Positions 23,751-28,170 of a stretch of 64,000 nucleotides of DNA are shown piece after piece. The position numbers and the translations under genes are program-made. The notes beneath the pieces were generated by a model. It saw only the letters and a list, made by a program, of their open reading frames with translations, was not told the origin of the DNA and ran no database searches. The number at the start of each line of letters is the position of its first letter. The stretch's first letter is position 1. Source of the stretch: Chryseobacterium sp. SC28 (GTDB taxonomy: Bacteria > Bacteroidota > Bacteroidia > Flavobacteriales > Weeksellaceae); NCBI RefSeq assembly GCF_003932955.1, contig NZ_QOVY01000001.1, forward strand, positions 248,001-312,000. Direction: 5' to 3'.

Positions 23751-24209
23751 ATGAAAGGAATATTGAAGATCTATCATCCGGAGGAAACTATGAAGTATTT
23801 CATCAAAAGTACTTATTGCAAGGCGGTTTACATTAATGCACAGAATTTTCTGGAAGTAGAGATTATCACAGATGACTCTTTGGATCACGTGGACGACGAC
23901 TCTTTACAATACAATTTCCCACAACTATCATTAGACATCATCGATTTTCCGGTAGCCACGTCCGAATTAAGCGGGCAAACTTTTTTAGTTGAGGATACGG
24001 AGGAAGACGTCTATACAGAAGTGGATCTTTTCGATGACGAAGAAGCTTTTCTATTTGATAATGAACTGAAATTCGACACCAACGAAAGCGGCGACCTTCA
24101 GCTTTATTGGACGGGCAACATTACCGACTTCTACACCGGTGCCAAAGATCCGATTCCCTTCAAGCTGAAATGCCACTTCCGCCCAGACGAGATAGAAATT
24201 GACGACTAA
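23751..24209 (+). CDS. Acidic cytoplasmic protein, unknown function
   Basis: 152 aa with no signal or membrane segment. The middle is strongly acidic (DDSLDHVDDDSL, VEDTEEDVYTEVDLFDDEEAF), and the C-terminal half looks like beta strands. I do not recognise a domain. It precedes the tonB-exbB locus on the same strand by 75 bases; whether it belongs to it is unclear. Confidence 0.75.
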   Translation: MKGILKIYHPEETMKYFIKSTYCKAVYINAQNFLEVEIITDDSLDHVDDDSLQYNFPQLSLDIIDFPVATSELSGQTFLVEDTEEDVYTEVDLFDDEEAFLFDNELKFDTNESGDLQLYWTGNITDFYTGAKDPIPFKLKCHFRPDEIEIDD

Positions 24210-24243: not shown

Positions 24244-24268
24244 CGTTATAAAGCTAAAGTTTATAACG
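24244..24268. promoter_or_regulatory. Operator-like inverted repeat upstream of the first tonB-like gene
   Basis: CGTTATAAA (24244-24252), seven-base spacer GCTAAAG, TTTATAACG (24260-24268): a perfect nine-base inverted repeat ending 16 bases before the ATG at 24285. Size and position fit a dimeric regulator binding site. The regulator is not known and the motif is not one I recognise. Confidence 0.55.
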
Positions 24269-24284
24269 CAAACGAGTTTTTCCT

Positions 24285-25211
24285 ATGTATCAGGATTTGG
24301 ATGATATTATTTTCGAAGACCGGCATAAGGCTTACGGCGCATACGCTTTTCGCAAACATTATAATTTTACGCTAACCAAGGCTTTGGTGGTCGGCATTTT
24401 CATCTTTTCAGTCTTGTTTTTTCTTCCGGCCTCATTCATCAAATCGAAAAAAATAACTGCCGTAGAAAGCGAAAGCATCATCCCTATGGAACTCACGGAG
24501 ATGCGCATCAACTATGGAGATAACCGAAATGGCAAAGGATTGGACGAACCCAAAAAACAAGAAGGCAGTCCTGCTCCTGCAGTAGAAAAAGAAACAAAAG
24601 AAATTGAACCCGAAGTTGCCAAAACATCGAAAGAAAAAACCGACAAAGAAATTCCTGAAAATACCGTCCCTATCCCAACAAGGACGAAAACCCCAGCAGT
24701 AGCAGGCAAAAAAAGCATCGAGAAAAGCAATTCGCCCGCTGCAGCTAATTCTACCAAAAACATAACCGGCAAAACCAACGCCAAAGGCGACATCAAAAAA
24801 GAGAATGCCAGCGGAGACGGGCGCGGAAATGCCGCTATCGGAAACCTTCTGAAAGGACGAGGAACGAAAACCGGCACACAAGGAAACGGAACAGGAGCGG
24901 GAAACTACGGCGATCCGCTCGGCGGCGATGGCGACGGAACCAGCCTGATTGGCGTGGACAGAAAATTGATTGGTTTCATCCCCGGTACGATGGGCAGAGG
25001 CGGTACACAGCCGAAGCACGACTGCACTGCCAGCGGAAGCATCAGCATTGCCTACACGGTGGACAAATCCGGCAAAGTAACTTCTGCCAAGCGCCTCGCA
25101 GGCACGGCGGATCCTTGTATTATGAACACTGCAATAGCTTGGGTAAAGCAATACGTAAAAGCAGAAACCGCCTCTGTGTCGTCCAAGGGAACCTACAAGA
25201 TTGTCTTTTAA
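24285..25211 (+). CDS. TonB-like energy transducer
   Basis: 308 aa. The N terminus has the Bacteroidota TonB motif IIFEDRHKAYGAYAFRKHY in the cytoplasm, then one membrane helix (about residues 32-50), a long Lys/Glu/Pro/Gly-rich periplasmic linker, and a C-terminal TonB-type domain with two conserved cysteines (HDCTASG, DPCIMN) and SISIAYTVDKSGKVTSAKR. It would pass proton-motive force to outer-membrane receptors. The unusual motif FIPGTMGRGG before the C-terminal domain recurs in the second TonB-like protein at 26006. A terminator-like hairpin separates it from exbB. Confidence 0.85.
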   Translation: MYQDLDDIIFEDRHKAYGAYAFRKHYNFTLTKALVVGIFIFSVLFFLPASFIKSKKITAVESESIIPMELTEMRINYGDNRNGKGLDEPKKQEGSPAPAVEKETKEIEPEVAKTSKEKTDKEIPENTVPIPTRTKTPAVAGKKSIEKSNSPAAANSTKNITGKTNAKGDIKKENASGDGRGNAAIGNLLKGRGTKTGTQGNGTGAGNYGDPLGGDGDGTSLIGVDRKLIGFIPGTMGRGGTQPKHDCTASGSISIAYTVDKSGKVTSAKRLAGTADPCIMNTAIAWVKQYVKAETASVSSKGTYKIVF

Positions 25212-25240
25212 AATTGAATTAGTTTTTGTTCAATTTTTAA
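25210..25240 (+). terminator. Terminator between tonB-like gene and exbB
   Basis: AAAATTGAA (25210-25218) pairs perfectly with TTCAATTTT (25229-25237), followed by T. It overlaps the last base of the stop codon. AT-rich, so weaker than a GC stem. Confidence 0.6.
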
Positions 25241-25273
25241 TTAATCCTTTCTGATTTATCCCTCAGTTATTCA

Positions 25274-25281
25274 TAAATTTG
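25274..25281 (+). promoter_or_regulatory. Putative -7 promoter box of exbB
   Basis: TAAATTTG, an exact TAnnTTTG match, 18 bases before the exbB ATG and just after the terminator-like hairpin. This suggests that exbB and the following genes are transcribed separately from the first tonB-like gene. Confidence 0.5.
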
Positions 25282-25299
25282 ACCTAGTAAAAATATAAC

Positions 25300-25950
25300 A
25301 TGCAAACTATGGCAGATATCGATATTTCTATTTGGGAATTCCTTTTTGGTGGAGGTTTGCTGAGCGTTGTCGTCATCGCGATTCTTCTATTTTGCGGAAT
25401 TGCCGCCATCGTTTTTTTCGCGCAGAAATTGTACCAGCTCAACCGCGAAAACGAGGTTGATCCTTATTTGCTAAAAAACGTGAATGATCTCTTGAATGAC
25501 GGCAGAATCCAGTCCGCGGTAGATTTTTGCAGGAGAGACAACTCCCCCGAGTCGAGATGCGTGGAAAAAGGGCTCTCACGACTTGGAAGGCCTGTGGGCG
25601 AAATTGCCAACGCGATGGAAACTCAGGCTCAAATAGAACTGCAAAAAGCCGAAAAAAATATCGGCTTCTTGGCAACCCTTTCCGGCGCAGCGCCAATGCT
25701 CGGTCTGCTGGCCGGTGTTTTGATTTTAGTATTTACTTTTGTGGAATTGTCTAAAACCGGAACCGTAATCTCGCAGAATCTCTTGGCTGCAGAATTTATC
25801 AAAGCGCTGGCTCCCACGGTTGTTGGATTGGTTGTCGGGCTTTTATCTTATATTTTTCATAATATTTTGGTTGCAAAAGTGGATTATTTATTGATGAAAA
25901 TTCAGTTTCATACCAATGAGTTTTTGGACATCATCAACAAGCCGGCTTAA
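25300..25950 (+). CDS. exbB: MotA/TolQ/ExbB proton channel family protein
   Basis: Inner-membrane subunit of a TonB- or Tol-type motor, 216 aa with three membrane helices (about residues 15-38, 122-148 and 165-192) and the cytoplasmic loop between the first two. The second helix LSGAAPMLGLLAGVLILVFTF is typical. By eye the third helix reads IKALAPTVVGLVVGLL where E. coli ExbB has Glu176 (AEALLATAIGL), with Lys at that position; Bacteroidota proteins often differ here. No ExbD follows: the next gene is a second TonB-like protein. Confidence 0.9.
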   Translation: MQTMADIDISIWEFLFGGGLLSVVVIAILLFCGIAAIVFFAQKLYQLNRENEVDPYLLKNVNDLLNDGRIQSAVDFCRRDNSPESRCVEKGLSRLGRPVGEIANAMETQAQIELQKAEKNIGFLATLSGAAPMLGLLAGVLILVFTFVELSKTGTVISQNLLAAEFIKALAPTVVGLVVGLLSYIFHNILVAKVDYLLMKIQFHTNEFLDIINKPA

Positions 25951-26005
25951 GTAAGAAATTGGCTTTTAGAAGTCAGACTGATAATCATTTTAGATACTTT
26001 TATAA

Positions 26006-26656
26006 ATGAAATTCCGAAGGAAAACCAAAAAATTATCAGGATTGCCGGCTGCATTTTATGTGGTGGCGCTTATGTTTTTTATACTGTTGTTTTCCTTCAA
26101 TTCGCTTTATTACAAAACGCCTGAAAAACCAAAACCAGTCGTTATTACAGCTCCAAAACCGGCAACAGAACCTACAAAAGACTCGGTCCTACAACCGGAA
26201 ATCTATGTTCCGGATGTTGAAGTTTTACCATCAGATACCGTTCCCTTAGCCCAAGAAATTGTGCCGGTAAAAGAAGAAAAGAAAACCGTTGCTAAAGCCG
26301 AAAGCGCTGCCGCTGAAAACAACAAAACAAGCACGAAAGACGATAAAAATATAGCTTCGACGACAGATTCTAAGGGCGAGAAAATTACCAAAATTGGAAA
26401 AGACAGAATGCTCACCAATTTCATCCCCGGAACAATGGGTAAAGCGGGAAAATTGCCGGCTCACAATTGTAAAACCAAAGGCCAGTTGGTAATGTTCATT
26501 ACCATCGACAAGGCGGGAAACGTGACAAGTGCGGGCCGGAGCAGCGGCATTAAAGATCCTTGCAATATCACGGCTGCTGTGATTTGGCTGAAAAAATACG
26601 TGAAAGCCAAGAAGTCCCAAAATGTTTCTCAGGGAACTTATACGATTGTTTTTTAG
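26006..26656 (+). CDS. Second, short TonB-like protein
   Basis: 216 aa: a very basic N terminus (MKFRRKTKK), one membrane helix (about residues 16-35), a Pro/Lys/Glu/Thr-rich linker, then FIPGTMGKAG and a C-terminal domain with GQLVMFITIDKAGNVTSAGR and two cysteines (HNCKTKG, DPCNIT) in the same places as the protein at 24285. It occupies the slot where exbD normally lies. The N terminus has an ExbD-like topology but lacks the conserved membrane Asp of ExbD, so I call it TonB-like. It lies 55 bases after exbB and 43 before folC. Confidence 0.82.
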   Translation: MKFRRKTKKLSGLPAAFYVVALMFFILLFSFNSLYYKTPEKPKPVVITAPKPATEPTKDSVLQPEIYVPDVEVLPSDTVPLAQEIVPVKEEKKTVAKAESAAAENNKTSTKDDKNIASTTDSKGEKITKIGKDRMLTNFIPGTMGKAGKLPAHNCKTKGQLVMFITIDKAGNVTSAGRSSGIKDPCNITAAVIWLKKYVKAKKSQNVSQGTYTIVF

Positions 26657-26699: not shown

Positions 26700-27944
26700 A
26701 TGACCTCACAAGATTATAACGAAGCGGTCGAATGGCTTTTTGCGCAAGCTCCCAATTATCAAAGAGATGGTTCTTCAGCCTACAAACCTGGACTTGAAAA
26801 CATCAAAAAACTTTGTGACTTTTTCGGAAATCCTCAGGAAAAAATAAAAACGATTCATATTGGCGGGACCAACGGAAAAGGTTCTACGAGCAATATGCTG
26901 GCATCGATACTTCAGGATTGCGGTTATAAAATCGGGCTTTATAATTCGCCACATTTGATAGATTTTACGGAGCGGATAAAAATAAATGGTGAGAATTGTG
27001 ACCAAGAATTTGTTTATAATTTTATCTTGAAACTGCAGGAATTACCGAGCGAAATTCAGCCTTCCTTTTTTGAATTCACCACCATAATGGCTTTCGAATA
27101 TTTTTACCAAAAAAAAGTTGACTTTGCCATTATCGAAGTTGGCTTGGGAGGGAGACTGGACTCTACAAATATTATCAAACCTTTGGTTTCTGCTATTACT
27201 AATGTTCAATTGGATCATCAGGATCTTTTGGGCGAAACGATTGAGGAAATCGCTGCGGAAAAAGCGGGAATCATCAAAGATTATATTCCTGTAATTTCCG
27301 GTGATGAAAAAGATTCTGTGAAAGAAATTATCATCAAAAAAGCCACTGAATTGAACTCCAAATTCATCGATGCAACGCTGATTAACAGTTCTTTGGAGTC
27401 TGATCTCAAAGGAAAATATCAAAAAAAGAATATCCGTGTGGTATTGGCTTTGGTGGATGAACTGAGAAAGCAAGGTCTGAAAATTACCGACGAAAATGTA
27501 CCCATTGGTCTTTTAAATGTTTACAAAAACACCCACTTCCTCGGCCGCTGGTTTGAGTTTTCGCAAAACCCCCTGACCATCTGCGATACCGGCCACAATA
27601 AAGATGGCTTGGAAGAAGTTTTCAATCAATTAAATGACTATCCACAGCACAAGCACATTGTTTTGGGCTTCGTAAATGATAAAAAAATAGATGAAGTTTT
27701 GGACATTCTGCCGAAGAATGCCGATTATTATTTCGTAAAACCTTCGGTGAACCGTGGCAGGCATCCGGAAACATACCAGCATTTGCTGATCAGGACCGGT
27801 CTTTCTTATCAGATTTTTGAAAATGTGCAAGATGGTTATCTTTCTGCGAAAAGCGAATGTCAATCGAATGATATGATTTTCGTGGGTGGCAGCAACTTTG
27901 TGGTGGGCGAATTTTTGGAAAAAAATTTGCGGCATTATTTATAA
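26700..27944 (+). CDS. folC: Bifunctional folylpolyglutamate/dihydrofolate synthase
   Basis: Adds glutamate to dihydropteroate and to reduced folates with ATP, in the cytoplasm. The Mur-ligase-type P-loop is IGGTNGKGSTSNML (about residues 58-71), with SPHLIDFTERIKING, VGLGGRLDSTNII and the C-terminal NPLTICDTGHNKDGL. 414 aa. It follows the tonB-like gene closely and may be co-transcribed with exbB. Confidence 0.96.
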   Translation: MTSQDYNEAVEWLFAQAPNYQRDGSSAYKPGLENIKKLCDFFGNPQEKIKTIHIGGTNGKGSTSNMLASILQDCGYKIGLYNSPHLIDFTERIKINGENCDQEFVYNFILKLQELPSEIQPSFFEFTTIMAFEYFYQKKVDFAIIEVGLGGRLDSTNIIKPLVSAITNVQLDHQDLLGETIEEIAAEKAGIIKDYIPVISGDEKDSVKEIIIKKATELNSKFIDATLINSSLESDLKGKYQKKNIRVVLALVDELRKQGLKITDENVPIGLLNVYKNTHFLGRWFEFSQNPLTICDTGHNKDGLEEVFNQLNDYPQHKHIVLGFVNDKKIDEVLDILPKNADYYFVKPSVNRGRHPETYQHLLIRTGLSYQIFENVQDGYLSAKSECQSNDMIFVGGSNFVVGEFLEKNLRHYL

Positions 27945-27982: not shown

Positions 27983-28060
27983 GGGCTCTTAGCTCAGTTG
28001 GTTCAGAGCATCTGGTTTACACCCAGAGGGTCGGGGGTTCGAATCCCTCAGGGCCCACCA
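27983..28060 (+). tRNA. tRNA-Val (anticodon TAC), CCA encoded
   Basis: Complete cloverleaf: acceptor GGGCTCT/AGGGCCC, D arm GCTC-GAGC, anticodon stem TCTGG/CCAGA with loop TTTACAC (anticodon TAC), T arm GGGGG-TTCGAAT-CCCTC. Discriminator A at 28057 and genomic CCA at 28058-28060. Confidence 0.97.
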
Positions 28061-28092
28061 AAAGGATACTGAAGCCTTTTCTAAAAATTTCA

Positions 28093-28167
28093 GGGCTCTT
28101 AGCTCAGTTGGTTCAGAGCATCTGGTTTACACCCAGAGGGTCGGGGGTTCGAATCCCTCAGGGCCCA
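28093..28167 (+). tRNA. tRNA-Val (anticodon TAC), second copy, CCA not encoded
   Basis: All 75 bases to the discriminator are identical to the first copy, which ends 32 bases upstream. Here CAA follows, so CCA has to be added enzymatically. A terminator follows directly, consistent with co-transcription of the pair. Confidence 0.97.
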
Positions 28168-28170
28168 CAA

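Follow-up and report, generated by a model that had tools for sequence, protein, structure and literature searches.

A Ton locus without exbD in Epilithonimonas: an ExbB with altered proton-path sites between two TonB-like proteins

Introduction

Proton coupling in the Ton and Tol motors is believed to depend on ExbD or TolR, and excerpts of two reports name a pair of threonines in the ring protein, together with the ExbD/TolR aspartate, as the proton-transport residues of TolQR and ExbBD (PMC12965293; PMC12215075); the TolQ exchange T145A impairs function (PMC12965293). Here we describe a locus, ton1-exbB-ton2, in which an ExbB (ExbB1) is encoded between two TonB-like proteins and exbD is missing. 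It lies in a window of 64,000 nucleotides (nt) from Chryseobacterium sp. SC28, a member of the genus Epilithonimonas as grouped here (family Weeksellaceae; contig NZ_QOVY01000001.1, positions 248,001 to 312,000, forward strand).

The exbD-bearing loci that serve below as outgroup resemble the TonB1 system of Riemerella anatipestifer (exbB1-exbD1-tonB1), which in the excerpted report is of the same three-gene type, with similar protein sizes and a hypothetical gene upstream; the species also has a second operon, exbB-exbD-exbD-tonB, elsewhere in its genome (PMC4446302). From gene order and sizes we infer that the outgroup loci correspond to this TonB1 system. Unlike the locus in the window, the R. 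anatipestifer locus keeps exbD and is followed by a gene other than folC. According to the same excerpts, an Escherichia coli tonB mutant given ExbB1-ExbD1-TonB1 grew again on hemin and in the presence of an iron chelator, and deletion of tonB1 in R. anatipestifer itself left hemin uptake unaffected (PMC4446302).

The nearest published idea appears to be the TolR-less pairing of a TolQ-like ring with a von Willebrand factor A (vWA) protein, for which the excerpts of the report describe a TolQ/ExbB-type ring with no adjacent ExbD/TolR gene, as in the window, and predict the partner's own helix in the pore (PMC12204202). These pairs keep the Asp of the pore helix and the ring Thr and carry a vWA domain in the periplasm, whereas in the window the periplasmic part is of TonB type and both the Asp and the Thr of the Thr148 site are gone. 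With TolQRA and ExbBD-TonB of E. coli the locus shares the ExbB fold and the TonB-type C-terminal fold of ton2 (both in models), and it differs from them in having no ExbD/TolR gene and in its altered proton-path sites. No description of the ton1-exbB-ton2 arrangement was found in the literature searched, which comprised titles and abstract openings and covered few subscription journals.

Results

Three co-directional open reading frames (ORFs) in the order ton1-exbB-ton2, with no exbD, were found in 25/25 genomes of what we call the derived group (23 Epilithonimonas and two of a sister genus). This repetition shows that the arrangement does not stand there by chance and bears out the first-pass annotation, which had seen in this one sequence that exbD was missing and that a TonB-like protein stood in its slot. 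A search of 59 genomes, the window's own included, showed the order in all 22 other members of the genus, and a search of 320 genomes of the family led to the sister genus, whose exbB is 57-59% identical. In the outgroup, exbD lay downstream of exbB in all 47 loci read (24 obtained with a sequence pattern, 18 by BLAST and 5 by eye), 30 from the family and 17 from other families of the order; six order genomes (G048, G050, G051, G053, G056 and G058) and most of the 294 exbB-matching family genomes were not read gene by gene, and locus L124 (genome G030) was excluded, its only ExbB being of the canonical type described below.

A profile of the locus-type ExbD matched 267 of the 320 family genomes at E<=1e-20 and none of the 25 derived genomes, 20 of which are among the non-matching family genomes listed (53 lack a match, and the 20 all belong to the genus), the other 5 being judged by a separate comparison of bit scores. 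The best ExbD of any derived genome reached at most 44.6 bits against this profile, compared with 189-210 bits in 5/5 controls. Relocation of the locus-type exbD within the genome is ruled out by this search, and a recent deletion confined to the strain, which would have undone the first-pass interpretation, is ruled out by a loss common to 25 genomes of two genera. In a quick ExbB tree the 25 derived sequences share one branch with support 100 and a long stem, with the warning that long branches meet at this clade, and a folC tree joins the 24 derived genomes it contains with support 97. A single ancient loss of exbD would be the simplest reading of the trees and the distribution.

Elsewhere in the family, this exbB was without a match at E<=1e-20 in all 14 listed genomes of genus g40 (G259-G272) and in the three listed of genus g9 (G030, G317, G318), and the exbB locus seems to have been lost or replaced there. 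G276 and G277 matched exbB only weakly, and the matches listed for them include no ExbD of the locus type.

The genome of the window (2.74 Mb in 48 contigs, completeness 99.98%) encodes ExbD twice, in a single exbB-exbD-exbD-tonB operon that lies on a different contig; exbD is therefore lacking at the locus and not in the cell. The ExbB of this canonical system (ExbB2) retains, by eye, Thr, Glu and Thr at the motor sites. Some ExbD is present in all 25 derived genomes, with a single one in the incomplete G001. Three ExbD matches occur in 17 of the 23 genus members, compared with two in the genome of the window; the third match is mostly a frame of about 178 amino acids (aa) apart from the canonical operon.

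ExbB1 is recognized by the MotA_ExbB profile with 69.8 bits (cut-off 22.9), and its model, with a mean predicted local distance difference test score (pLDDT) of 85.5, superposes on TolQ/ExbB chains with Z 14.2-18.2 at 2.5-3.2 Å, best on TolQ 9kpz_A (Z 18.2) and, among ExbB chains, on 9ddo_A (Z 17.0). Its proton-path sites, with equivalences set by profile alignment to TolQ and counted over the 25 derived and 47 outgroup loci, are altered. The Thr148 site holds Thr in 47/47 outgroup sequences and Gly (22) or Ser (3) in the derived group, and the Thr181 site Thr (45) or Ser (2) in the outgroup and Ser (14), Thr (7), Ala (3) or Gly (1) in the derived group; the pair of pore threonines expected of a proton-driven motor is broken in the window, where ExbB1 has Gly and Thr. 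The position preceding the Thr181 site, in the third transmembrane helix (TM3), is Pro in 25/25 derived sequences. Another TM3 site, whose number we take to be Glu176 (the passages searched for it gave no mention), is Lys in 23, Asn in one and Glu in one derived sequence and Thr in 44/47 of the outgroup, and three positions before the Lys stands Asp, Asn or Glu in 23/25. Gly152 and Gly175 (numbering of locus L080) are each Gly in 47/47 outgroup sequences and substituted in derived ExbB. The second mark of a proton-driven motor, an ExbD or TolR encoded beside ExbB, is absent from all 25 derived loci.

These changes come with strong constraint. Among pairs with a synonymous distance (dS) of 0.2-2.0, the median ratio of nonsynonymous to synonymous substitution (dN/dS) of exbB is 0.054 in Epilithonimonas (186 pairs), the genus from which all derived values come; two sets of outgroup genomes that keep exbD give 0.044 and 0.055 (few pairs, 6 and 7). 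Medians for the other genes are 0.064 for ton1, 0.121 for ton2, and 0.11 and 0.075 for the outgroup TonBs. Because the exbB value is so close to those of exbD-bearing outgroups, the gene does not look like one in decay.

By sequence comparison, ton1 is a chimera, with a start that resembles the canonical TonB and a remainder of TonB1 type. Residues 1-60 score 129 against the N terminus of the canonical TonB of the same genome, where 500 shuffles reach at most 42; four ton1 rows give 123-132 (shuffle maxima 38-43), and three outgroup TonBs of this locus only 24-35. In E. coli, excerpts of a published account place the helix that docks on ExbB in the corresponding segment of TonB (PMC12215075), so that the canonical ExbB2-ExbD-ExbD motor is the probable driver of ton1.

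The N terminus of ton2 is basic and is followed in the model by a single helix (residues 13-35), and no Asp or Glu occurs within residues 12-36 in any of the 25 copies, as the first-pass annotation had described for this sequence in speaking of an ExbD-like topology without the membrane Asp. That Asp is present in 42/42 outgroup ExbDs, of which 24 came from a pattern search that itself requires the Asp and 18 from BLAST, which does not select for it; five further ExbDs found by eye were likewise not selected by the pattern. An ExbD domain was sought in both TonB-like proteins without success, again in keeping with the annotation: ton2 is absent from the genome's matches to PF02472 (ExbD/TolR) at E<=10, and neither ton1 nor ton2 has an ExbD match at E<=1 or any Pfam or NCBIfam match over its cut-off. 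For the TonB family PF03544, ton2 is not among the matches and ton1 scores 13.4 bits, below the cut-off of 24.6.

The C-terminal domain of ton2 (model residues 132-216) superposes on 9ddz with Z 8.6 (2.1 Å over 74 residues) and on 2gsk_B with Z 8.5, compared with Z 4.1-6.7 for nine entries of TolA domain III; some TonB/HasB entries also fall to 4.1. On this model, whose mean pLDDT is a modest 71.6 and mostly above 90 in the domain, the domain has the TonB fold. A Foldseek search with the model gave no match at E<=0.001, the best (8.5e-3) being a TonB. When profiles of ton1, ton2 and TonB were compared with PDB sequences, the top match was TolA (E 0.0012-0.0044); it covers the membrane segment and a low-complexity linker and was set aside.

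Both TonB-like proteins of the window carry FIPGTMG and two C-terminal cysteines. The first-pass annotation was right that these are shared; the motif is not unusual at this locus. PGTMG is present in 25/25 ton1 and 25/25 ton2, and its PGT core also in 24/25 family outgroup TonBs of this locus (0/11 from other families), which excludes it as a marker of the ton1/ton2 pair and makes it ordinary for a TonB of this locus. The two cysteines occur in all 75 proteins compared (25 ton1, 25 ton2 and 25 family outgroup TonBs).

Discussion

The annotation from which this work started is partly supported; the changes in the proton path of ExbB1, the canonical-TonB-like N terminus of ton1 and the complete second Ton system go beyond it. 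We hypothesize that the last ancestor shared by Epilithonimonas and the sister genus took a proton motor apart in linked steps, that its TonB function was re-homed through ton1, and that ExbB1 and ton2 were kept as an unpowered TonB-anchoring complex, an explanation to which we give a probability of roughly 0.45. The ancestral locus would have been a three-gene Ton system, exbB-exbD-tonB1. A copy of TonB1 would have become ton1 by acquiring the part of the canonical TonB that lies in the cytoplasm and the membrane, with the receptor-facing end of TonB1 now probably powered by the intact ExbB2-ExbD-ExbD motor. For the loss of exbD the simplest route would be a single in-frame deletion running from within exbD into the neighbouring tonB1, so that the beginning of the one was fused to an internal part of the other; the product, ton2, would bear the TonB C-terminal domain on an ExbD-like N terminus and a helix without the Asp. 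ExbB1, altered at its proton-path sites and still strongly constrained, would form an unpowered ring that grips the ton2 helix in the former ExbD site. The TonB domains of ton2 would thereby be offered to outer-membrane partners without proton drive, as a tether, a regulator or a competitor of ton1. The order of these steps, the ExbB1-ton2 complex, the lack of proton flow and the division of labour we infer from the observations taken together. Only tentatively do we extend this to the full version, in which the pore of an ExbB ring without a proton path, yet under strong purifying selection, is occupied by an exbD-tonB fusion, and TonB function was moved to a different motor by an N-terminal swap.

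If this is true, nature would have disarmed a motor at this locus and re-targeted its force arm. A clade with a constrained ExbB, no ExbD of its own and altered proton-path sites would split the structural role of the ring from its role as a motor. It would also test whether the choice of motor by TonB resides in its first ~60 residues, and it suggests an evolutionary route by which transducers switch between motors.

Most ton2 rows start M[EK]FRR[KR]TK and many ExbDs of the family ME[LF][KR]R[RK]N. In a profile-profile comparison (hhalign) the N terminus of ton2 aligns from residue 1 with a profile of 30 family ExbDs at a score of 21.5, which none of 200 segment-wise column shuffles reaches (mean 6.6, standard deviation 4.0). 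Against the N-terminal profile of the outgroup TonB1 it scores 12.3, reached by 57/200 shuffles. It is mainly this comparison that makes an ExbD origin through exbD-tonB fusion suggestive, a proposal that we hold at a little under even odds, with tests that disagree. The rival view, for which the odds are somewhat longer, is that ton2 descends plainly from tonB1 with a shortened N terminus and resembles ExbD by convergence or chance, which would be compatible with an unpowered complex. Against plain descent, besides the profile-profile result, stands the position of ton2 after exbB, where the outgroups have exbD.

Several results weigh against an ExbD origin or against the preferred explanation as a whole. 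The hhalign probability of the ton2-ExbD match is only 14.5%, and 6.1% with all 42 ExbDs. In gap-free scoring the shuffle fractions are 0.002-0.044 per row, for rows that are not independent by descent; when 30 offsets are allowed, the N termini of two outgroup TonBs score as high or higher. A plain hidden Markov model (HMM) of ExbD is exceeded by 290, 148, 43, 129, 286 and 13 of 300 shuffles for six ton2 rows, whereas the HMM of the TonB1 N terminus is exceeded by only 5, 10, 5 and 23 of 300 for four Epilithonimonas rows, a result that favours plain descent; for the sister-genus rows the figures are 85 and 144 of 300. In the tree of TonB domains ton2 joins the TonB of a single outgroup genus (98/99), which is not the closest one by folC. 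The linker motif [ED]IY[IVL]P[DE], found in 24/25 ton2, recurs in 2/25 outgroup TonBs, both of that genus, which again suits plain descent. The grouping in the tree may reflect long-branch attraction, transfer or an older duplication; the trees that place the ton1 and ton2 copies rest on few columns, are unsettled in their bootstraps and conflict with each other. The ton1 copies do not form one clade in the tree of TonB domains. Finally, 21/25 derived ExbB sequences still have Thr or Ser at the Thr181 site, and 3/25 have Ser at that of Thr148.

The retained hydroxyl residue at the Thr181 site would also suit a motor that is still proton-driven, with an ExbD supplied in trans from another operon and with ton1 and ton2 docked outside. 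ExbD is indeed encoded in every derived genome, and a third ExbD match is frequent in the genus. We consider this unlikely: the Thr148 site, invariant in the outgroup, is now Gly or Ser, Pro and mostly Lys are new in TM3, and the N terminus of ton1 resembles that of the canonical TonB.

Less probable again is that ton2 is itself driven, as a direct rotor-TonB fusion rotating within ExbB1, where the TM3 Lys or the residue three positions before it would handle the charge. Its ExbD-like start in the profile-profile comparison and the frequency of both residues (23/25 each) are consistent with this, and the TolR-less TolQ-like/vWA pairs are, in the excerpts of their report, predicted to work in such a way, but with an Asp (PMC12204202). 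No ton2 helix has an acidic residue, and the Lys is not strict, being replaced by Asn once and by Glu once. That exbD was lost first and that ExbB1 and ton2 are decaying remnants, as the changed motor residues and the higher dN/dS of ton2 might suggest, is very improbable given three ORFs open in 25/25 genomes, an exbB value like that of exbD-bearing outgroups (few pairs there) and a TonB of one outgroup set (0.11) near the value of ton2.

Locus layout and expression signals

The five genes from the upstream hypothetical gene to folC run in the same direction (Table 1). The first-pass annotation had started the locus at 24244, upstream of the first listed start codon.

Table 1. Coordinates of the ton1-exbB-ton2 locus and its flanks in the window
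Feature	Position	Strand	Description
Conserved hypothetical gene	23751..24209	+	upstream flank in many family genomes; outside the machine
ton1	24285..25211	+	chimeric TonB, 308 aa
ton1 residues 1-60	24285-24464	+	canonical-TonB-like
ton1 remainder with C-terminal domain	24924-25208 (domain)	+	resembles TonB of exbB-exbD-tonB locus (alignment of periplasmic part)
Promoter-like box TAAATTTG	25274..25281	+	5' of exbB; conserved across the genus
exbB (ExbB1)	25300..25950	+	216 aa, altered pore; PF01618 E=2.3e-19; TolQ/ExbB fold
ExbB1 Gly139	25714-25716		at Thr148 site
ExbB1 Lys168	25801-25803		
ExbB1 Pro172	25813-25815		
ExbB1 Thr173	25816-25818		at Thr181 site
ton2	26006..26656	+	216 aa
ton2 residues 1-36	26006-26113	+	ExbD-like N terminus and helix without Asp
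ton2 linker, then C-terminal domain	26369-26653 (domain)	+	TonB-like; profile comparison, structure model, alignment
folC	26700..27944	+	downstream flank, marks the locus in many genomes; TIGR01499 E=5.7e-102

The box before exbB, reported in the first-pass annotation as a separate promoter, recurs 26-36 nt 5' of exbB in 23/23 genus members and in 0/2 sister genomes. It resembles the Bacteroidota -7 consensus, TAnnTTTG; the pattern used detected no -33 element that would complete a promoter. Separate expression of exbB-ton2 through this conserved promoter-like box is possible. The terminator-like hairpin of the same annotation fared less well: an AT-rich inverted repeat of 7 bases can be seen by eye in the ton1-exbB gap (25212-25218 and 25229-25235), but the terminator scan lists no + strand terminator there, and an alignment of the gaps shows no conservation of the repeat. 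The gap alignment omits locus L111 (G015), whose ton1-exbB gap is 619 nt compared with the usual ~100 and whose box still lies 31 nt before exbB. Between exbB and ton2 the gap is <=4 nt in 17/25 genomes and 55 nt in the window.

The flanking genes were undetected in two loci, folC in L106 and the upstream gene in L094, at a contig end. In the outgroup loci L075 and L137 about 0.7-0.8 kb separate exbB from exbD. In L075 (G025) inserted ORFs (219, 171 and 266 aa) separate exbB, exbD and tonB, with all three Ton genes retained; the last of them (266 aa) looks by eye like an alpha/beta hydrolase. L096 (G021) has between ton2 and folC an ORF of 229 aa, endonuclease/exonuclease-like by eye, that is not present in the window. 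Immediately 3' of folC the window carries a tandem pair of tRNA-Val genes (anticodon TAC; 27983-28168).

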